Shown here: piece by piece, positions 1 through 17,226 of the stretch
Layout of the letters: every line of letters starts with the position of its first letter
Numbering within the stretch: position 1 is the stretch's first letter
IMG/VR virus record: IMGVR_UViG_3300044922_000340
Span: 1-20,286 of that record
Strand: one strand, 5' to 3'
DNA length: 20,286 nt
Source: a virus
Position numbers and translations under genes: made by a program
The notes under the pieces: model-generated
The model's input: the letters and a program-made list of their open reading frames with translations, nothing else
Database searches by the model: none
What the model was told of the DNA's origin: nothing

Positions 1-115
1 CTGATCCAGTAAGGGTTAGCCAAGCAATAAAGAATCCTAATAGGGTGAATATTTGGGCTATACTTTCCTTGATTACTTCCCATATATATTTAAATAGTGC
101 CTTGATTATTTTCAT
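1..115 (-). CDS. Small membrane protein, 3' end beyond window
   Basis: The N-terminal 38 residues of a gene that runs off the left edge. Its ATG overlaps the stop of the upstream 702-aa gene by one base (TAATG), and an AGGAGG ribosome binding site lies just upstream at about 119-127. The visible part starts with a basic amphipathic stretch (MKIIKALFKYIWEVIKE), then a hydrophobic run (QIFTLLGFFIAWLTLTG) that looks like one membrane-spanning helix. I do not recognise the family. A holin-like or other small phage membrane protein is possible given the exported protein upstream, but nothing visible proves it. The coupling implies co-translation with the PA14 protein. Confidence 0.6.
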   Translation of the reverse strand, partial: MKIIKALFKYIWEVIKESIAQIFTLLGFFIAWLTLTGS

Positions 116-2223
116 TATATCCTCCTAGTCATTGCAGCTGCAATAATATTTGATGCGATAATTACTGGTATTACAACTTCCTGCGCTTTTTCTCTTTGGT
201 CATCTGTCATATCTTTACCCCATTCTGAAGGGTTTAAAACTTTTTCAAAATCTATATCCAATATAGCTCCTATTGGATCCGCCAAAAATGCTTCTGTTTG
301 AACCTCTGTTGTTGCATCTGCTAAAGTATAAGGCATATTCGTATCTCCTGCTGACGCTGCTCTATCTTCAAATTCTACAAATGCCGTGGCCAATTCTGGA
401 TTGCTTTTCATTGCTTCAGCAATTGCTGATACATCTGAAGATTTAATTCCAAGGTTCTCTGCAACCTCGGATTTTGCTTCTTTTGTTAAAGCAGTTAATG
501 TTTGGCTAATTGCAGAAACTTGTTCAGGACTTAGTATAACTAATTTATTATCTTTACTTGTTAAATTAGCTATGACCCCAGAAAGATCTTCTGATGTTCC
601 AGTTCCTTTTTCAGGAATAAGCGCTGCTAATTCTTCATCTTTAATTTCAACATTATCTGTAGGCTCAGATGTTGGTTCTTCAGTAGGCTCAGATGTTGGT
701 TCTTCAGTAGGCTCTGGTGTTGGTTCTGGTGTTGGCTCTGGTGTTGGTTCTGGTGTTGGCTCTGGTGTTGGTTCTTCAGTAGGCTCTGGTGTTGGTTCTT
801 CAGTAGGTTCAGATGTTGGTTCCTCTGTAGGCTCTGGTGTTGGTTCTTCAGTAGGTTCAGATGTTGGTTCTTCAGTAGGCTCAGATGTTGGTTCTTCAGT
901 AGGCTCTGGTGTTGGTTCTGGTGTTGGCTGATTTGCTGCAGCGTTTGCTGCAGCTTGTGCAATTGCTGCGTTCAATTCTCTTTCAGACTGCTCAAAATAA
1001 TAAGTCCATGCATCTTCAATAGCAGCATTTAAATCAATTATAGATTGATTATATGTGTTGATTCTATTATTCTTTAATTCTAAAGCAGATGTTAGGTTTT
1101 GTTGTGCGATTGTTAGGTTTTGAATTGCTGTTGTGAGGTTTGATGTGAGATTTTGTAAGACTTGTACTTCTTGATTGTAAACATTTAGTTTGTCATTATA
1201 TACTGCTAATTTATTATTATAGATTGTTTGTGCTATAGACTGTGCTTCAACAGCATCATTGTAAGCATTGGTCTGTTCCTGTGTTGGTCCTGAGCCAGAA
1301 GAAAATGTATTAAGATTACAACTAAAGTTTTGTCCCCATACTCGTGGATCTCCAGCATAGTCGCATCCTGCTCCAGTCCAGCCTCCAGGAATTGCCCATC
1401 CAAGATGATAAGATCCTGGGCCTCCTCCGTTATACCACCAAATCTCTACACTCAATGTTTTGTCTTCGCTAACATCATATACTGGTGAATAGTCGCTCCA
1501 GGTAGTTCCTTGCTCTATCCATTGATCTATTGCAAGATTTCCGTCTACATACATTCTAAATCCATCATCTGTATATCCTGCAAAATATGTTGATGTGAAC
1601 CAAGACGGTACTGTTATTTGACCAGTGAACTTAACTATAAAGTTTTCGTATCTGTTACCACAAACTGGTAGTTGCATGTGACTTGAGTTCCAAGTGCCAG
1701 AACAAAGCACAGATCCTGGGGTAGCGACATTACCTTGTCTAACAAGAGTATAAACAGTGTATGCCAAACCTGTTCCCCCAGCACTCTGCATATTAGATTG
1801 TGTGGTTTGAACATTAATATTGGCTATGCTGAGAGCATCCTGTGCATCGTTTCTTTCTTCAAGAGCATTGTCTTTATGTTCAAGGGCCAAGGCTACTGTG
1901 GCTGTCTGCCCATCCACATTTGACTGGGCAAGGTTCTTTGCTTCTAAGGCTGTGGCTTCTGCTTCTACTGCATCTTCGTGGGCATCATAGGCATCATCTT
2001 TAAGTTCCTTCGCATTTGTGGCTGAAGCAAACTTATTTTCTGCTATGTCTATAAGATCTATAAAATCATCTTGATAAACTAAATTAGATACCTTACTATT
2101 AAGCTCTTCTATTTCTTGAGCGGCTAGGCTAAGTGGATCATCTCCGTGGGCAGGAGTAAGAAATACCCATCCAAACATTAAAATGGTGGCTAATGATAAT
2201 CTCCATGCTTTAGTCCTAGTCAA
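115..2223 (-). CDS. Exported PA14-domain protein with Pro-Thr repeats and coiled coils
   Basis: A 702-aa protein starting at TTG, chosen because an AGGAG site sits 6-7 bases upstream and only this start keeps the basic n-region of the signal peptide. Order: signal peptide at residues 1-27 (hydrophobic core about 9-24, AHG-D cleavage region); Ala/Glu-rich coiled coil about 30-145; PA14-like beta domain about 153-285 with the typical GYTDDGFRMYVDG segment and four Cys at 174, 188, 287 and 302; Asn/Gln-rich coiled coil about 314-425; a 90-residue PTPEP/PTEEP/PTSEP linker at 433-522; an acidic helical C-terminal domain; a hydrophobic segment about 682-698 followed by basic residues. PA14 domains usually bind carbohydrate. 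The domain order suggests a protein exported by the host and possibly anchored at its surface, or an unusual virion adhesin. It has its own promoter and is translationally coupled to the next gene. Function is inference. Confidence 0.85.
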   Translation of the reverse strand: MTRTKAWRLSLATILMFGWVFLTPAHGDDPLSLAAQEIEELNSKVSNLVYQDDFIDLIDIAENKFASATNAKELKDDAYDAHEDAVEAEATALEAKNLAQSNVDGQTATVALALEHKDNALEERNDAQDALSIANINVQTTQSNMQSAGGTGLAYTVYTLVRQGNVATPGSVLCSGTWNSSHMQLPVCGNRYENFIVKFTGQITVPSWFTSTYFAGYTDDGFRMYVDGNLAIDQWIEQGTTWSDYSPVYDVSEDKTLSVEIWWYNGGGPGSYHLGWAIPGGWTGAGCDYAGDPRVWGQNFSCNLNTFSSGSGPTQEQTNAYNDAVEAQSIAQTIYNNKLAVYNDKLNVYNQEVQVLQNLTSNLTTAIQNLTIAQQNLTSALELKNNRINTYNQSIIDLNAAIEDAWTYYFEQSERELNAAIAQAAANAAANQPTPEPTPEPTEEPTSEPTEEPTSEPTEEPTPEPTEEPTSEPTEEPTPEPTEEPTPEPTPEPTPEPTPEPTPEPTEEPTSEPTEEPTSEPTDNVEIKDEELAALIPEKGTGTSEDLSGVIANLTSKDNKLVILSPEQVSAISQTLTALTKEAKSEVAENLGIKSSDVSAIAEAMKSNPELATAFVEFEDRAASAGDTNMPYTLADATTEVQTEAFLADPIGAILDIDFEKVLNPSEWGKDMTDDQREKAQEVVIPVIIASNIIAAAMTRRI
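658..927 (-). repeat. Coding tandem repeat (Pro-Thr-Glu linker)
   Basis: A degenerate 12/24-bp tandem array inside the PA14 gene, encoding residues 433-522 as alternating PTPEP, PTEEP and PTSEP units. The periodicity opens long artificial reading frames on both strands (for example 386-931 plus and 627-962 minus), which I regard as shadows. Unit number probably varies by slippage. The product would be an extended, acidic, Pro-rich stalk of the kind found in wall-spanning or surface proteins. Confidence 0.9.
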
Positions 2224-2237
2224 CTATAACTCCTAAA

Positions 2238-2252
2238 TAAACAATTTGTTTA
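2238..2252. promoter_or_regulatory. Inverted repeat, possible operator
   Basis: A perfect inverted repeat with 7-bp arms (TAAACAA / TTGTTTA) and a one-base centre. It sits between the predicted -10 box at 2261-2266 and the ribosome binding site of the 702-aa gene, so it overlaps or closely follows the expected transcription start. The centre is too short for an RNA hairpin with full arms, so a protein-binding site is more likely. The binding protein is unknown. Confidence 0.35.
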
Positions 2253-2260
2253 CTTAGTTA

Positions 2261-2269
2261 ATTATACCA
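2261..2269 (-). promoter_or_regulatory. Extended -10 promoter for PA14 gene
   Basis: On the minus strand TGG is followed directly by TATAAT, a perfect extended -10 element. No good -35 box is visible at 16-18 bases. Transcription would start near 2254, giving a leader of about 30 nt with an AGGAG site before the TTG start. The same TGGTATAATTA string is found before the Hsp20 gene. Confidence 0.6.
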
Positions 2270-6329: not shown

Positions 6330-6549
6330 TAGAAGACTCTACTATCTGCTGAACATATTCAGAAAAATGTTTCCTAATGCTACCAGCTGGCCTAGAGCCA
6401 TAAGAGTCCCATATTCTTTTATACTCAATTACATTATAGTATGTAGTTGGACACAAAATATTATTATTGTAATTTTTTAGTGTAGTTGGCAAAGGAACGT
6501 GCTTTGTGCAGCACTTGCACCCCTTGGCTCTTTCTTGATACTCGCTCAT
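6313..6549 (-). CDS. Cys-rich small protein downstream of terminase
   Basis: 78 aa, GGAG five bases before the ATG, overlapping the terminase stop in an ATGA junction. The N-terminal part has Cys11, Cys13, Cys14, His17 and Cys33, which could bind one zinc ion. The rest is polar with an RIWDSYGSRPAGSIRKHF segment. I do not recognise the family. The tight coupling to the large terminase and its own coding-like composition make it a real gene. A packaging accessory is possible but unproven. Confidence 0.7.
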   Translation of the reverse strand: MSEYQERAKGCKCCTKHVPLPTTLKNYNNNILCPTTYYNVIEYKRIWDSYGSRPAGSIRKHFSEYVQQIVESSIDTQH

Positions 6550-8351
6550 ATTATCTCCATGTTTTCTATAGATCTAGCTAAACTTTCTGGCATTCTTGGT
6601 GCACGAATCATGTTCTGAACATACTCAACTTCACCGTCATTTTTGTTAGCAAAGTCATTGTCGTAACTCATTGATTCGTAATCATGAATCTTTATCTCTT
6701 CATCCCTCTTTATTCTACTTCTGCTTATAGCATTATATACAGCCCCACATACAGCATCGGCTAAATCTTTAGAGCCTTTTCTGGGGTGATCAACCTTATC
6801 TCTCATAATTCTAAGCTGAAGCAATTCATCAATTAATAATGGTATGTGTGGACCAGATAATCTTTCTTCTAATACAACCATAGCCATGTCATCATAATGT
6901 TTTTTTGCAACTGAAAGTATCTCTGTATTAATTCCATATGTTTTTAGTTGCTGCATCATATCGTGAGAATTCCATCTGTCAAATGTACAGACCTTTATGT
7001 TAAATCCCCTAGTTTTTAGGGAAAGTATATAGTCTTTTACTTCTGTGAAGTCTACAGACTTATCTGGAGTAGGCGTCCAAAATCTAACAGCATCTATCTC
7101 TACAATAGGTGCTGGCTGGTTATATGTATCTGTTACCTTTATGTCAACCCATTTATTTACATGCCCCATTGCTACTGCACAGTGGTCGTGCTTTTGAGCC
7201 AGGTCTACATGTATAAAGTAATCTTTTCCTTCTTCTGGCTTAAACCACTCCTCTAATCTTCCAAATGAGTCTACCGCTATATTAGCCTTGCTGAATGCCT
7301 TCTCAATTTTTTCTCTTGACTTAAAGAATGCATCTACTGCATCAGATGGCATGCATGCAAATCTTCCTAGTGCATCCTGTGGATTTTTATGAAAAGCAAC
7401 GGTAAAATCTGTTATCTTTTTTGTTGGATTTACTTCCCATGTAGGTCTTTTTAAAGCAAATACTCTTGGATAAACATAAGAAACTATGTGGTCTTCTTCC
7501 CATGAAACCTCAAACTCATTTCCAGGAGTTCCGTCTGGAAGATACTGGTCTAGCTTTAATAGCTCTGTTCTCATAATAGTTTCTTTTTCGGCTATAACCG
7601 ATTCATAAAATTTTTGGATTGGATCATTTTTAAATCGGGGAAAAGATAGCAAAATTACCTTACCTACATCTGGGAAACGTGAATCAACAGATGCTCTATA
7701 CATATCATATATAGCATCTGCAGTCTTTGCTTGATCGTGTCCGCTGGTATTTTCTGTTGCAAAACCAGAAATTTCATCTAAGATAACAACTAATACGTTA
7801 TATCCTTCCCAAGCCTCTCTTTCTGAGTGGCCAGAATGAACTGTAATAGATTTATCAAACTTAATTTCTGATGCTTTATCAGTATATTTACCAGCAAACC
7901 ACGGAGAAACTTCAATTCTCATTTTAAAACCTTTAAAAAAAACATTATTTGCCTGCTGAGAGTTGATAGCAATATTTAAAATATCTATTGCATCTCTTGG
8001 CGGCTTTCCATAGTATGCTGCTGGATCTTTTAAGCATAACAAAAGATAAACTATATATGCAACTGCAATTGTTGAAGAGTAATCTTTACCAGATCCTTTT
8101 CCTAGCTGTGCAATAACTTCAACGCAGGTTTGTTTAAATATCTTTTTGCCCAGCTCTTCGCCATAAAGTTTTATTAAGGTAGACTCTTTATATATCTGAG
8201 AACTTCTTTCTATAAGAGTGTACTGGTTTTCAGATAGTGGAGGCAAGCCAAGATAGTCTGGGCTTGTTACAAAAGTTTGAAGGTCCACTGGACGCTCTTC
8301 AAACTCTTCTCCGTCTAGTATCTCTATTAGGTCTGAAAAATCAAACGACAT
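6546..8351 (-). CDS. terL: Terminase large subunit
   Basis: 601 aa from ATG at 8351, preferred to an in-frame TTG four codons upstream because GAAGAG precedes the ATG. The N-terminal ATPase has a deviant Walker A GKGSGKD at 84-90 and a Walker B VLVVILDE ending Asp192-Glu193. The C-terminal RNase-H-like nuclease begins with FIHVDLAQKHDH (Asp383) and closes with DLADAV (Asp532). Length and order match phage TerL proteins, which cut concatemeric DNA and pump it into proheads. It overlaps the upstream gene by 11 bases and the downstream gene by four. Position directly after the probable small subunit supports the call. Confidence 0.93.
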   Translation of the reverse strand: MSFDFSDLIEILDGEEFEERPVDLQTFVTSPDYLGLPPLSENQYTLIERSSQIYKESTLIKLYGEELGKKIFKQTCVEVIAQLGKGSGKDYSSTIAVAYIVYLLLCLKDPAAYYGKPPRDAIDILNIAINSQQANNVFFKGFKMRIEVSPWFAGKYTDKASEIKFDKSITVHSGHSEREAWEGYNVLVVILDEISGFATENTSGHDQAKTADAIYDMYRASVDSRFPDVGKVILLSFPRFKNDPIQKFYESVIAEKETIMRTELLKLDQYLPDGTPGNEFEVSWEEDHIVSYVYPRVFALKRPTWEVNPTKKITDFTVAFHKNPQDALGRFACMPSDAVDAFFKSREKIEKAFSKANIAVDSFGRLEEWFKPEEGKDYFIHVDLAQKHDHCAVAMGHVNKWVDIKVTDTYNQPAPIVEIDAVRFWTPTPDKSVDFTEVKDYILSLKTRGFNIKVCTFDRWNSHDMMQQLKTYGINTEILSVAKKHYDDMAMVVLEERLSGPHIPLLIDELLQLRIMRDKVDHPRKGSKDLADAVCGAVYNAISRSRIKRDEEIKIHDYESMSYDNDFANKNDGEVEYVQNMIRAPRMPESLARSIENMEII

Positions 8352-8880
8352 CTGACTCTTCAATTATATTAATAGACTGTACAACACCAGTTATTTGAGA
8401 TAATCTTTTCGCCACCTCTATCTTGCAGTGGTTGCATCCAGAAGTTACCTCTTTCAATATCCCAACAAGCATCTCCTGCTTTCTTTCTGTTTCTAATATT
8501 TGAGATGCAATTTCGCTATTTTCTAAAACCCCGATAGACTGAAGCATGGCAATTCTTTTTGTCTCTATGTCTGCTATAAGCTTGAGTGTTCCAGACTTAA
8601 CATTAAGCTGACCCTGTGTGTCAGCATCTTCTACTGTTTTCCACGCTTCTTTAATTAGCATATCGTAATGTTGATCTGCCCCAAGCAAAGCCTCTTTGGC
8701 TCTATCTCTAACATTTGTATCATTATGGACAATAGACTTCCATTCATCTACATACTCAAGGACTTCTTTTCTTGTAAACCCAGTTATGGTGGCTATTTGT
8801 GTAGCAGAATTTCCTTTTAATAGCTCAGAGACTACCCTATTCATCTTATCAAAATGCACTGCTGGCTCTATTTCACTCAT
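8341..8880 (-). CDS. terS: Probable terminase small subunit (HTH protein)
   Basis: 179 aa. The ATG lies exactly six bases after a consensus -10 box, so the mRNA should be leaderless; no ribosome binding site is present. Residues about 15-48 form a helix-turn-helix (LLKGNSATQIATITGF followed by TRKEVLEYVDEW). The rest is largely helical with a central region about 60-150 and a CNHCKIEVAKRL motif near the end. An N-terminal HTH, a helical oligomerisation core and position just before terL are the pattern of small terminase subunits, which recognise packaging sites. Sequence similarity to a named family was not checked, so the name rests mostly on context. Confidence 0.7.
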   Translation of the reverse strand: MSEIEPAVHFDKMNRVVSELLKGNSATQIATITGFTRKEVLEYVDEWKSIVHNDTNVRDRAKEALLGADQHYDMLIKEAWKTVEDADTQGQLNVKSGTLKLIADIETKRIAMLQSIGVLENSEIASQILETERKQEMLVGILKEVTSGCNHCKIEVAKRLSQITGVVQSINIIEESDVV

Positions 8881-8886
8881 ATAATA

Positions 8887-8915
8887 ATTATACTTCTAGT
8901 CAACTAAAAAGTCAA
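8887..8915 (-). promoter_or_regulatory. Consensus leaderless promoter for terminase unit
   Basis: On the minus strand TTGACT (8910-8915), a 17-base spacer and TATAAT (8887-8892) form a near-perfect housekeeping promoter. Only six bases separate the -10 from the ATG at 8880, so transcription should start at or next to the start codon. The spacer holds a second TTGACT (8898-8903) in direct repeat. Confidence 0.8.
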
Positions 8916-9062
8916 TTATCTTTTAATTTTTAGCTTAAATTTGTCTAAATACCTTTGAATAGTCATATGCGAAACTGAGCACTCGTTTGCTATGTCTACC
9001 ACTGTTTTCTTCTGAACTATGTATCTATTGTATAGCCAGTCTTTATTTTGATACAACTTCAT
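8916..9062 (-). CDS. 48-aa helix-turn-helix protein
   Basis: A short gene of 48 aa whose ATG overlaps the RuvC-like gene stop (ATGA). Sequence pattern: W-L-Y-x-x-Y then VDIANECSVSHMTIQRYLDKF, a compact helix-turn-helix with the A-x5-V-x-x-x-T-I spacing of phage HTH proteins. Such domains also occur as DNA-binding ends of phage HNH nucleases, but no nuclease part is present here. It ends immediately before the terminase promoter and could bind it, which would make it a regulator of packaging-gene expression. That role is inference. Confidence 0.75.
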   Translation of the reverse strand: MKLYQNKDWLYNRYIVQKKTVVDIANECSVSHMTIQRYLDKFKLKIKR

Positions 9063-13508: not shown

Positions 13509-13706
13509 TTAATCTTTTATTTTTAACTTAAATGTGAATGATTGATTTTTTTCGTCATAATCAACTTGCAATTCTTTGTCTTCATTTTCTGCGTTTACTA
13601 CTGTCATTATTGGAATAGATATCTCTCCTAGTGTTTCAAGTGCTGCTACAAGAATTCTTGAAACATTTAGCTGTGCAAATACATCTTCAATTTTTGCTTC
13701 TGTCAT
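13509..13706 (-). CDS. Small acidic protein of unknown function
   Basis: 65 aa, AAAGGAA before the ATG, ATGA overlap with the dnaE stop. An amphipathic N-terminal helix (EDVFAQLNVSRILVAALETLG) precedes a beta-rich acidic half ending QSFTFKLKIKD. Not recognised. Strict coupling to the polymerase gene suggests a replication accessory. Confidence 0.65.
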   Translation of the reverse strand: MTEAKIEDVFAQLNVSRILVAALETLGEISIPIMTVVNAENEDKELQVDYDEKNQSFTFKLKIKD

Positions 13707-16700
13707 TTTATTTCCTTTACGTTTAACGTTCCATCATCTAATTTTGATAGAACCACCTTACATTTCATTCCCTCACGCATTTTTGCTAAGGTCATTTTAT
13801 ACATTGTTGGGAAAGCAATTGCTCTTGTTAAAGTTTTATTTTTATCTGATAGAACTATGTGGCTCATAGTCTTGCCAGCTTTTGTTGTATATGGAGTAAA
13901 GTTTACAACGATATACTCATCATCTTCTAAGTCATACTCTTTTCTATAAAGATAATCTACGAACATGTCATTTGAAGATGGGTCAATATCTGAAACCTTA
14001 ATGTACCTAGCAATTCTATTATCTCCTACTAGGATAAAGTACATCTGGCCAACTTCAATTTGAGTCTGCTCATTGTGGAATAGACCAATAGATCCAGTCT
14101 CATCGACAATTTCTACTCGTGCCCATCCAGTACCACGCTTGATACCCTTTACCATTCCAAACATAACAAATGAACCAAGGTCGTCAAACTCTTCAATCGG
14201 TCTAGCCTGAGCCTTTACTCTTGGTGGGATCCCCTCTAAGTTAAATGTAGGTATGCCCAGATACTCATAGTAGTTATCTTTTTCATTTCCGTTTCTTAAG
14301 TTATCTTTAAATGCTGCTGCTCCAATTGCATTTAGTGAACTTATTGCTCTGCTATTTATACCACTGCCTTTAGCAGAAGCAATTGAAATAAAGTGTTCAT
14401 AGCTCTTATAAGGCCTATGATCAATAATCTTATTTGAAATATTATCTGATATAAATTTAACTTCAGAAAGCCCAAAGCGTATAGCGTTGTCTTGAAGAGA
14501 AAAATAAAGCTCTGATTCATTTATGTGCGGCAATAAAACTTTTAATCCAAGTCTCTTCGACTCAATTAAATATTCCGTCCTAGCATCCTTATCGTTTTCG
14601 TTTTTAAGAATCGAAAACATAAACTCAAGTGGGTAATAAAACTTAAGCCAAGCAGTATAATAACTAAGCATAGAGTAAGCAACAGCATGGGAACGGTTAA
14701 AAGAATAACCAGCATGCGCTTCAAAATCGTGCCATAGCGCTTCTGCTTTTTTCTTAGTAATGTGTTCTGAAGCCCCAGTAACAAACCTATCTTTGAACTG
14801 GTCAAACTCTTTTGCATCTTTCTTCTTTCCAATAATCTTGCGGACCTTATCAGCCTCTGCCCAAGTCATTCCACCTAAGTGTACGCATGCCTGCATAACT
14901 TGCTCTTGATATATAATAACACCATAAGTATTCTCGGTAAAAGGCTTCATGATTGTATGCATATAATCTACTGCTTCATTGCCTTGCTTACGCTTGATAT
15001 AGGCAGCCCCTACAGTATTCATGGCACCTGGCCTTACTAGTGCATTAGATGCAACTAGATCTTCAAACTTGTCTGTCCCCATCTTAATAAGAAGGTTAGT
15101 GTATGGCGTTGCTTCAGCTTGGAATACTCCCTTAGTAAATCCTTCGCTAAGCATCTTGTAAACTTCTGGATCATCAAGAGTTAAATCAGACAGCACTATA
15201 TCCTTGCCAGTTCTAGATTTTATTGATTTAAGTGTATCTGAAATAACGGATAGAGTTTTTAGTCCCAAAGCATCTAGCTTGATAAGACCAATATCTGCAA
15301 CAGTATCCATATCATAGGCAACTACAGGAATTCTTCCTGAAACTTTATCCTGTGCATCTTCTCTTGATTCAACGGGAGCAAACTTTCTAAGGTCATCTTT
15401 AGCTACAACAACTCCAGCTGCATGCACTCCAACAGATCTAATTCTTCCACGCAATCTATCTGCAAGCCAAACAACTTCTGGGTACTTGGCTCTAAACTCT
15501 TTTGTGTTTGGTGAAGAAACAAAGTCTTCAAAGGTGTCAATTGATTTCATTGCACGATTAACTTCTTGCAGTGGAACCATAAAAATTCGTGCTGCATCTC
15601 GGATTACACCTTTATCTTTAAAATAAGTGTAAGTTGAAATAGAAGCAACGTGTTTAAATTTTTTCTTAAGGTATTCCTTTACCTCTTTACGACGACGATC
15701 TTCAAAGTCTGTATCGATATCTGGAAAGTCATTACGCTCTGGATTAATAAATCTAAAAAACAAAAGGTCATATTTAATTGGATCTACATCAGTTATTCCT
15801 AATGCGTAACAAACTAAAGATCCTGCAGCAGAGCCACGGCCTGGACCCACACGGATATCGTTTGTCTTAGCCCAATCAATCATGTCTGCAATCACTAAAA
15901 AATACGATGCAAAACTCTTAGATGCAATAACCGAAAGCTCTTCTTCTACTCTATCAATATATGCCTGATTATTTGAGAATCCAAGCTTATCTATTCCAGA
16001 ATATGCCATCTCACGAAGCTTGTCGTCTGCATCTGTTTTTGGAACTGGAAGCAGATCAAGTCCTTGATGGAAGTCGTAGTCTTCAATCTTATCTGCAATC
16101 TCCATTGTGTTTTCATATATGTCTGTGCGAGAAATTCCAGCAGCATTAAAGTCTGATTCAATCTCTTCTCTAGACTGAATGAAAAGGTTGTAATCCTGAA
16201 AAGAAATTCTGCGGTCTGGATATAGATAATTAAATCTTTCCATCATGTCTTTAATGTTACGAGACATTTCAAAGTCTGATTCCTTATCAATCTTTGGAGA
16301 TGTAGAAAGGATAAGTAGCGCTTCTTCTAACACCCTATCTTCTTCTTTAGCAAAGTGGGCATCTCCTGTTGCCACCGCCTTAATTTTTAATTCATCTGCC
16401 AACTCTAAGAGCTTGGCGTTTATTTCTGGCGGGTTGTGAGATTGAACCTCAATATAAAAATCTTCATTAAAAGTTTGTTTAAAGTCTTTGAGTACAAGTT
16501 TTGCTTCTGAGAATTCTCCACGCTCAATAGCTTTGCTAATAAGGCCGTTGAGGCATCCAGACAAAACGATAACACCTTCAGCATATTCTTTTAGAACCTC
16601 TCTGTCAATACGTGGCTTATGATAAAATCCTTCATTCCAAGCGAGCTCCTGAAGTATATTAATATTCTCCAACCCCTTTTTATTTTTCGCTAGCAAAATA

Positions 16701-16972
16701 ATATGGTTATAGGCTTGAATAGATTTATCTGTCTTGGAAGATCTATCAAATCTATCGGTTGGAGAAATGTACGCCTCAACACCAAGAATCGGCTTAATGC
16801 CAATTTCCTTTGCGGCAATCTGCATATCTCTGTGTGACGAGAGAGTACCATGGTCTGTGATTGCAATCGCAGTCTGCCCAGCATCTAACGCTGCTTGACA
16901 TAATTCTTTAGGTGAATTTAGTCCATCCATTAATGAATAATAGGAGTGAACATGTAGGTGTGTAAAACTCAT
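13703..16972 (-). CDS. dnaE: DNA polymerase III alpha subunit
   Basis: 1089 aa from the ATG at 16972, which overlaps the previous stop (TAATG). PHP domain: HLHVHS at 5-10, AITDHGTL, GVEAYI, YHKPRID, LSGCLNG and ATGDAHF, so the usual metal ligands all seem present. C-family polymerase core: GPGRGSAAGS near 375-385, PDIDTDFEDRR near 417-427 with Asp418/420/422, and KLDALGLKTL with Asp567. Fingers and helix-hairpin regions follow, then an OB-like C-terminal part (VEIVDETGSIGLFHNE). It is the replicative polymerase. No 3'-5' exonuclease gene is seen in the window, so an active PHP domain may proofread. The length is shorter than E. coli DnaE (1160), mainly at the C-terminus. Confidence 0.95.
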   Translation of the reverse strand: MSFTHLHVHSYYSLMDGLNSPKELCQAALDAGQTAIAITDHGTLSSHRDMQIAAKEIGIKPILGVEAYISPTDRFDRSSKTDKSIQAYNHIILLAKNKKGLENINILQELAWNEGFYHKPRIDREVLKEYAEGVIVLSGCLNGLISKAIERGEFSEAKLVLKDFKQTFNEDFYIEVQSHNPPEINAKLLELADELKIKAVATGDAHFAKEEDRVLEEALLILSTSPKIDKESDFEMSRNIKDMMERFNYLYPDRRISFQDYNLFIQSREEIESDFNAAGISRTDIYENTMEIADKIEDYDFHQGLDLLPVPKTDADDKLREMAYSGIDKLGFSNNQAYIDRVEEELSVIASKSFASYFLVIADMIDWAKTNDIRVGPGRGSAAGSLVCYALGITDVDPIKYDLLFFRFINPERNDFPDIDTDFEDRRRKEVKEYLKKKFKHVASISTYTYFKDKGVIRDAARIFMVPLQEVNRAMKSIDTFEDFVSSPNTKEFRAKYPEVVWLADRLRGRIRSVGVHAAGVVVAKDDLRKFAPVESREDAQDKVSGRIPVVAYDMDTVADIGLIKLDALGLKTLSVISDTLKSIKSRTGKDIVLSDLTLDDPEVYKMLSEGFTKGVFQAEATPYTNLLIKMGTDKFEDLVASNALVRPGAMNTVGAAYIKRKQGNEAVDYMHTIMKPFTENTYGVIIYQEQVMQACVHLGGMTWAEADKVRKIIGKKKDAKEFDQFKDRFVTGASEHITKKKAEALWHDFEAHAGYSFNRSHAVAYSMLSYYTAWLKFYYPLEFMFSILKNENDKDARTEYLIESKRLGLKVLLPHINESELYFSLQDNAIRFGLSEVKFISDNISNKIIDHRPYKSYEHFISIASAKGSGINSRAISSLNAIGAAAFKDNLRNGNEKDNYYEYLGIPTFNLEGIPPRVKAQARPIEEFDDLGSFVMFGMVKGIKRGTGWARVEIVDETGSIGLFHNEQTQIEVGQMYFILVGDNRIARYIKVSDIDPSSNDMFVDYLYRKEYDLEDDEYIVVNFTPYTTKAGKTMSHIVLSDKNKTLTRAIAFPTMYKMTLAKMREGMKCKVVLSKLDDGTLNVKEIK

Positions 16973-17178
16973 TAGTATCCGCCACAACATTCATTTCTAG
17001 TATGATAAAGTCTAATCTTTGTCAATGTTTTTTTATTTGGTGCGTAAAGATCTTCTTTGCAACAACCACATTTCATATGCCATTCTTTAGCAAAGAAATC
17101 GTAGATAGAGCCTACATAATTTTTGTACTTGTTATATACAAAAGTTTCAAACGGGTCTGGTATTTCGTAAGAAATCAT
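16972..17178 (-). CDS. Cys-rich 68-aa protein
   Basis: The ATG lies six bases after a TAAAAT -10 box, so translation is probably leaderless; no ribosome site is present. Cys37, Cys39, Cys40 (KCGCCKED) and Cys64-Cys65 near the end, with His34 and His59, suggest one zinc site. The first half is aromatic (FETFVYNKYKNYVGSIYDFF). No family recognised. It is the first gene of the polymerase unit. Confidence 0.65.
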   Translation of the reverse strand: MISYEIPDPFETFVYNKYKNYVGSIYDFFAKEWHMKCGCCKEDLYAPNKKTLTKIRLYHTRNECCGGY

Positions 17179-17184
17179 ATTGCT

Positions 17185-17213
17185 ATTTTACTAAATAATG
17201 CAGGGGCAGTCAA
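17185..17213 (-). promoter_or_regulatory. Leaderless promoter inside terminator hairpin
   Basis: TTGACT (17208-17213), 17-base spacer, TAAAAT (17185-17190), six bases to the ATG at 17178. The -35 box uses the last loop bases and the first part of the distal arm of the hairpin at 17201-17226. The geometry is identical to that of the terminase promoter. Confidence 0.7.
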
Positions 17214-17226
17214 TAGACTGCCCCTG
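17201..17226 (-). terminator. Hairpin terminator after ssb
   Basis: A perfect 11-bp stem (CAGGGGCAGTC / GACTGCCCCTG) with a four-base loop, 11 bases after the SSB stop. The GC-rich stem contrasts strongly with the surroundings. The tail on the minus strand is CATTATTTAGTAAAAT, T-rich but not a clean T tract, so termination could be partial. Confidence 0.75.

Follow-up and report, generated by a model that had tools for sequence, protein, structure and literature searches.

The Terminase Promoter and Its Start Codon

How is a packaging operon translated when its first gene has no ribosome site and its start codon stands only six bases behind a promoter? The question is raised by the terminase genes of a 20,286-nt virus record (IMGVR_UViG_3300044922_000340), the whole of which was analysed and is called the window here. 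On the minus strand, TTGACT (8915–8910) is followed by 17 nt, TATAAT (8892–8887), TATTAT (8886–8881) and the ATG (8880–8878) of the gene encoding the small terminase subunit, TerS. No SD-like run of four or more bases precedes this ATG in the window. The first-pass annotation had described just this arrangement, TTGACT, 17 bases, TATAAT, six bases and ATG without a ribosome site, ahead of the terminase, and the arrangement is real. Its interval, 8880–8915, places the site correctly but gives no strand and ends at the A of the ATG. The features of the unit are as follows.

8910–8915, minus strand: −35 hexamer TTGACT (from the sequence and a comparison of 54 distinct TerS upstream sequences)
8897–8906, minus strand: inverted repeat TAGTTGACTA with an AGTYRACT core, in the promoter spacer; candidate regulator site, the core being present in 54 of 54 sequences
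8887–8892, minus strand: −10 hexamer TATAAT (TATAAT in 49 and TATACT in 5 of the 54 distinct upstream sequences)
8878–8880, minus strand: ATG start codon and predicted transcription start (A8880 = +1), from gap counts and the absence of an SD in the 54 distinct sequences
8341–8880, minus strand: small terminase subunit TerS, 179 aa (phrog_9507; several relatives are annotated as terminase small subunit)
6546–8351, minus strand: large terminase subunit TerL; its start, the ATG at 8351, gives an 11-nt overlap with the end of TerS
8916–9062, minus strand: 48-aa HTH-like ORF (matches to phage DNA-binding/HNH families in PHROGs), whose TAA (8918–8916) abuts the −35

TerS matches phrog_9507 with an E value of 8e-54. 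The family entry itself names no function, and the protein is assigned to TerS by homology and by its position directly before TerL. TerL is up to 64% identical to the TerL proteins of Gilsonvirus members (Stanwilliamsviridae), with a gene order that looks alike by eye. TerL alone also matches phages of Vibrio, Microcystis and other hosts, and all of the matches are below 80% identity.

TTGACT-N17-TATAAT has the make-up of a sigma-70 (group 1) promoter, i.e., a 16–18 nt spacing or an extended −10. The first T of TATAAT lies 12 nt 5′ of the TerS ATG, the distance that marks a TA-led gene. In leaderless bacterial genes of this type TANNNT is found about 12 bp before the start codon and no SD is present, according to Zheng et al. 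(2011, PMC3160421).

From the sequence, we consider it very probable that the TerS-TerL mRNA is leaderless, a sigma-70-type promoter placing the transcription start on the A of the TerS ATG. With this reading we infer the 5′ end, the ribosome route, the coupling and the regulator. Host RNA polymerase would read the promoter and begin transcription at the A of the terminase ATG, and ribosomes would initiate TerS on the bare 5′ AUG of the leaderless mRNA. TerL would be translated by coupling with TerS across the 11-nt overlap, and the AGTYRACT in the spacer is probably an operator at which a regulator of phage or host origin acts. The TerS start would then be one member of a regular leaderless class, alongside a larger class of genes with SD-containing leaders.

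Two matches to the strict pattern TTGACN-N17-TANNNT-N6-ATG are present in the window where shuffling predicts 0.02, and none of 100 dinucleotide shuffles contained as many as two. The second match is at 17178, where the same geometry had indeed been reported. A looser pattern gives three matches against 0.37 expected; the third, at 14153, is inside the DnaE-like coding sequence and was rejected as a leaderless start. Since the window has no excess of plain promoter-like matches (64 observed, 66.1 expected), only the geometry relative to the ATG is significant.

Conservation of the TerS Promoter

The geometry, its conservation, the missing SD and a genome-wide peak at the same distance all come out of sequence comparison. 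For TerS, 160 viral loci were assembled as the best 80 from each of two overlapping searches, with some contigs counted twice. A −10 box 6–8 nt before the ATG, together with the lack of an SD, is found in 158 of the 160. The upstream regions of 148 loci could be parsed into 54 distinct sequences, in which the gap from −10 to ATG is 6 in 43, 7 in 8 and 8 in 3. An SD-like core (AGGA, GGAG, GAGG or AAGG) occurs in none of the 54, as is expected of a TA-led gene. The other 12 loci were read by eye and rechecked: ten fit the promoter pattern and two, L258 and L259, do not, having by eye an SD-like AGGA before the TerS ATG and no −10 there. In these two, the upstream sequence is different, yet the TerS protein is close to that of the leaderless group. 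A better, SD-led start conserved in homologues, which by the first-pass annotation would have refuted its reading, is absent from 158 of the 160 loci, and conservation of the TerS protein starts exactly at the ATG used in the window.

The two upstream elements of the promoter exclude each other. A −35 match of at least 4/6 is present in 25 of the 54 distinct promoters (TTGACT or TTGACA in 14, TTGCAA or TTGCTA in 11), none of which has the TG of an extended −10. The remaining 29 have the TG and all lack a −35, the best match being 2/6. Such exact mutual exclusion is the expectation if each element compensates for the other, and selection on a sigma-70 promoter would produce an either-or of this kind. 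Judged by these sequences, the −35 is not the conserved part of the TerS promoter, and the weight originally laid on it was too great, as 29 of 54 promoters use an extended −10 instead. Further upstream, the sequences differ among subgroups, with the promoter geometry kept.

A Probable Switch of Initiation Mode at TerS

TerS starts were compared in eight cultured relatives, i.e., seven Streptomyces phages and Rhodococcus phage Trina. The annotated start overlaps the upstream gene in six of the eight and lies 3–4 nt after it in two; some have a clear SD before TerS, and no −10 box 6–8 nt before TerS was seen by eye in any of the eight. The N-terminus of Trina TerS, MSEIEPA, is that of the window's TerS, which supports the window's TerS ATG, and the homologues of the cultured Streptomyces phages have other N-termini. 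Among the loci found with Coruscant TerS, L289 carries TTGACA-N17-TATACT at a gap of 8, and L279–L288 and L290 encode TerS without a leaderless promoter, all by eye; the partial L291 was left out. Leaderlessness is thus not essential to TerS, as the eight cultured phages, L279–L288, L290, L258 and L259 do without the promoter. TerS being coupled or SD-led in the cultured relatives and apparently leaderless in the window's group, the two make a natural comparison for studying switches of initiation mode.

A Hairpin–Promoter Joint before DnaE

At the second site, again on the minus strand, TTGACT (17213–17208) is followed by 17 nt, TAAAAT (17190–17185), AGCAAT and an ATG (17178–17176). The features are as follows.

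17208–17213, minus strand: −35 TTGACT, in the loop and 3′ arm of a hairpin
17185–17190, minus strand: −10 TAAAAT (from the sequence, the strict pattern and relatives)
17201–17226, minus strand: terminator-like hairpin of 11 bp, 3′ of the SSB gene, with the next −35 in its 3′ side
16972–17178, minus strand: 68-aa ORF, putatively leaderless, whose TAA overlaps the DnaE ATG (TAATG, 16974–16970)
13703–16972, minus strand: DnaE-like DNA polymerase III alpha, named by place and by eye; one-base overlap with the 68-aa ORF

The naming of DnaE is based on Streptomyces phage TunaTartare, in which a DnaE-like gene of similar size follows the SSB gene, as in the window. The segment 17179–17240 folds with −30.1 kcal/mol (z of −7.56). 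The hairpin may terminate transcription; its U-tract is weak. The original description of the promoters was right about the geometry and overlooked both this hairpin-embedded −35 and the AGTYRACT repeat at TerS.

Relatives of the second site (L292–L371) comprise 80 loci and 43 distinct sequences, of which 73 and 40, respectively, were used; two of the three rejected sequences follow a tRNA-like sequence and one has a different upstream sequence. In 40 of the 43, TTGNC and the −10 are separated by exactly 17 nt. Among the 40, the gap to the ATG is 6 in 37 and 7 in 3, and a stem of 9–15 bp surrounds the −35 in 38. Automatic delimitation of the stems gave 24 different arm sequences. As the arms vary while the −35 and the 17-nt spacing stay, selection seems to act on the hairpin and the promoter jointly. 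Two gene families, at 37846 of G003 and 59402 of G002, resemble this joint by eye.

Predicted Leaderless Starts across Related Genomes

Because the window is the whole virus record, the genome-wide test was made on relatives, i.e., five related phage records (G002, G003, G006, G007 and G008), taken together with the window. Of 801 genes called, 712 were used; those shorter than 150 nt and those for which no usable start could be assigned were set aside. Gene starts were chosen by a heuristic that favoured SD and ATG, not −10 boxes. A −10 box is found at gap 6 in 55 of the 712 genes and at gap 7 in 12, the background mean being 5.0 over the other gaps from 0 to 20 without 5–8 (P ~1.6e-37). Since records and orthologues are not independent, the count per gene family is used here: 27 at gap 6 against 4.24, coding coincidences included (P ~1e-13).

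Five of the 55 gap-6 matches are coincidences of coding sequence, four in DnaE and one in a Cas4-like gene. DnaE was rejected as a leaderless gene: its TATTAT, 6 nt ahead of an ATG within the gene, codes for part of the N-terminus, and the start of DnaE is likely the TAATG at 16972. The Cas4-like gene of G003 was rejected too, its −10 match being coding sequence. Without the DnaE and Cas4-like families, 28 families with 62 members have the box at gap 6 or 7. All members do so in 19 of the 28 (12 of them single-member families), and some orthologues lack it in 9. Five of the 28 family representatives lack both the TG and a −35 that matches in 4 positions or more. Counting genes with an SD run below 5, with DnaE removed and one Cas4-like coding match still in, the predicted leaderless share of the six records is 17/141, 14/160, 11/149, 9/158, 6/78 and 2/26, or 59/712 in total.

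Genes with an SD run of at least 5 have their −10 boxes elsewhere: 63 of the 85 boxes within 30 nt sit at gaps 21–30, and the SD-less genes peak at 6. The genome-wide pattern scan that had been suggested was run on the five relatives with TTGAC, and gave 13 matches at spacer 17 and gap 6, whereas the remaining 89 combinations of spacer and gap had 0–5 each. Ten members of the class, out of the 28 families, were scanned against PHROGs. Six matched, as a head maturation protease, a tail-fibre-like protein, an HslV-like peptidase, a protease, a 2OG oxygenase and a tryptophan halogenase, and no PHROGs match was obtained for the other four. A search of the five related records with one Pfam family for sigma-70 region 2, Sigma70_r2, returned none in any of the five, which makes a host sigma factor likely.

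A cultured phage and a control bear on the breadth of the class. For TunaTartare (NC_070784; Stanwilliamsviridae), 100 of 131 kb and 154 published starts were covered, and −10 boxes are found at gap 6 in 9 of the 154, at gap 7 in one and at gaps 8–13 in none. Its ten starts at gaps 6–7 include those at 13683, 20343, 34681 and 53898 and that of the capsid maturation protease (16060), which from its first residue on shows 42% identity to the window group's putatively leaderless protease family, itself at gap 7 in 4 of 5 records. TunaTartare thus shares with the window's group homologous TerS and TerL, the same 6-nt peak and a homologous capsid protease predicted to be leaderless in both, and it differs in that its TerS start overlaps the upstream gene. 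In a 50-kb stretch of phage T4, by comparison, none of 75 starts has a −10 at gaps 0–10. These are the 75 CDS starts that remain of 86 features once truncated genes, non-CDS features and starts that are internal or nested have been taken out. The comparisons suggest that leaderless initiation is a regular start type in this phage group and not an accident, and the claim of a deliberate class, made for the window, extends by the gap-6 peak to the relatives and to TunaTartare. Its presence in a cultured Streptomyces phage opens the class to laboratory testing. Another gene of TunaTartare has at 34646–34681 (L374) the sequence TTGACT-N5-TTGACC-GAAAG-ATATAAT-N6-ATG, strikingly like the window's TerS promoter.

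Comparison with Known Leaderless Genes

Leaderless genes in Actinobacteria and single phage cases make the kind of start already known. TA-like leaderless signals mark more than 20% of actinobacterial genes according to PMC3160421. Relative to those TA-led bacterial genes, the position of TANNNT and the lack of an SD are the same. The differences are that the genes here belong to phages, that the hexamer is near the full TATAAT and comes with a TG or a −35, and that TerS has an inverted repeat fixed beside the hexamer. In mycobacteria, leaderless translation requires nothing beyond a 5′-terminal ATG or GTG, and short leaderless ORFs frequently run into the start of the following gene, according to Shell et al. 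(2015, PMC4633059); the 68-aa ORF overlaps DnaE in the same manner. The mycobacterial transcripts come from host genes and have mapped 5′ ends, whereas the 5′ ends here are predicted.

Leaderless phage genes are mentioned for λ and P2 (PMC4633059; λ also in PMC3160421), and gene 90 of Adephagia is a putative case (PMC11373665). In these, too, a phage promoter has its transcription start, actual or predicted, at the start codon. They are single genes as far as the cited passages tell; the class described here takes in 59 of 712 genes, with a tail-fibre-like gene, a head maturation protease and TerS among its members. In the literature searched, mostly non-subscription papers, no title announced a survey of actinobacteriophages for leaderless genes. 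What is new here is the regular use of such starts in a phage group, the switch at TerS and the hairpin–promoter joint.

Alternative Readings and Significance

TerS might instead be translated mainly from mRNA reading through from the upstream operon, by coupling or by SD-independent initiation, with the promoter of minor importance. The stop codon of the HTH-like ORF ends 35 nt 5′ of the TerS ATG and no terminator was detected by the scan between the two, so a leadered read-through mRNA probably exists too; moreover, the cultured and some other viral relatives use overlapping or SD-led TerS starts. The window's group, however, has neither SD nor overlap, and the promoter geometry, found in 158 of 160 loci, is kept though the upstream sequences differ between subgroups. 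We regard read-through as an improbable main source of TerS. Hardly credible is the view that the TA-rich element is a chance match reflecting AT bias, or an A/U translation enhancer, rather than a promoter. The phage is AT-rich (GC 0.37), and its plain promoter-like matches are no more frequent than expected, but chance or base composition would have to account for a peak at a single gap, for the way a TG and a −35 at 17 nt strictly replace each other, and for the lack of such boxes in the T4 stretch.

A promoter giving a very short leader, of 1–5 nt, rather than a strictly leaderless mRNA, is an unlikely variant. The gap is 7–8 in 11 of the 54 distinct TerS promoters, and some TerS mRNAs may accordingly carry 1–2 nt 5′ of the ATG; gap 6 nevertheless dominates at TerS (43 of 54), at the 68-aa gene (37 of 40) and in the class at large (55 against 12 at gap 7).

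A further proposal is tentative, and we hold it rather doubtful: leaderless starts may gate expression and, at the same time, join operons in an ultra-compact way, with AGTYRACT as the operator that times the terminase gate. If the starts are gates, an SD-less gene would yield protein only when its mRNA begins at the gene's own ATG, and read-through would be silent. If they are joints, some 50 bp would combine an upstream terminator, the next −35 and the start of the next gene, as at the 68-aa/DnaE junction. 

On the main, leaderless reading, a widely sampled group of uncultivated phages, probably of actinobacteria, would start some operons without leaders, packaging and capsid genes among them. 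With such operon starts, annotation that prefers an SD may misplace start codons.

The Host

Actinobacteria are probably the best host reading for the window. The first-pass annotation had cited the abundance of leaderless mRNAs in that phylum in support of the same host, and independent support comes from the 132 phage records with TerS homology, 127 of Streptomyces and 5 of Rhodococcus phages, and from WhiB, which is encoded in 4 of the 5 related records and, among 14 control genomes, only in Corynebacterium. A search of genome contigs for the host returned only two contigs with a related TerL, CAILUB010000111.1 (L372) and CAINGU010000031.1 (L373), from metagenome bins labelled Cytophagaceae and cyanobacterium. 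Taken literally, these labels contradict an actinobacterial host; the contigs are probably misbinned phage contigs.

The AGTYRACT Repeat

The AGTYRACT core in the TerS spacer is found in all 54 distinct upstream sequences, at one of two distances 5′ of the −10, and in nine of the ten further fitting TerS loci, L270 carrying AGTCAACC instead. In the noncoding DNA of G002, G003, G006, G007 and G008 it is the most over-represented of 64 palindromes of the same form (46 copies against 4.7 expected, both strands counted); over the whole records of the relatives it is hardly enriched. In the TerS spacer, AGTYRACT probably serves a regulator, of the phage or of the host, as operator. The 48-aa HTH-like ORF is not an obvious candidate binder throughout the relatives, as by eye it adjoins the repeat in only part of them.

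Some noncoding copies are located at TTG start codons or away from promoters, so the copies may not all share one role. In TunaTartare, AGTYRACT occurs at two places only in the 100 kb examined, both inside annotated genes. A contrasting arrangement is found in the window at 2221–2269, minus strand, where an extended −10, TGGTATAAT, is followed by a leader of about 30 nt with the SD AGGAG and a TTG start. This TTG sits inside a TAGTTGACTA repeat and precedes the gene at 115–2223, minus strand, whose long product contains a stretch of EPTEEPTSEP-type repeats and begins with what looks by eye like a signal peptide.
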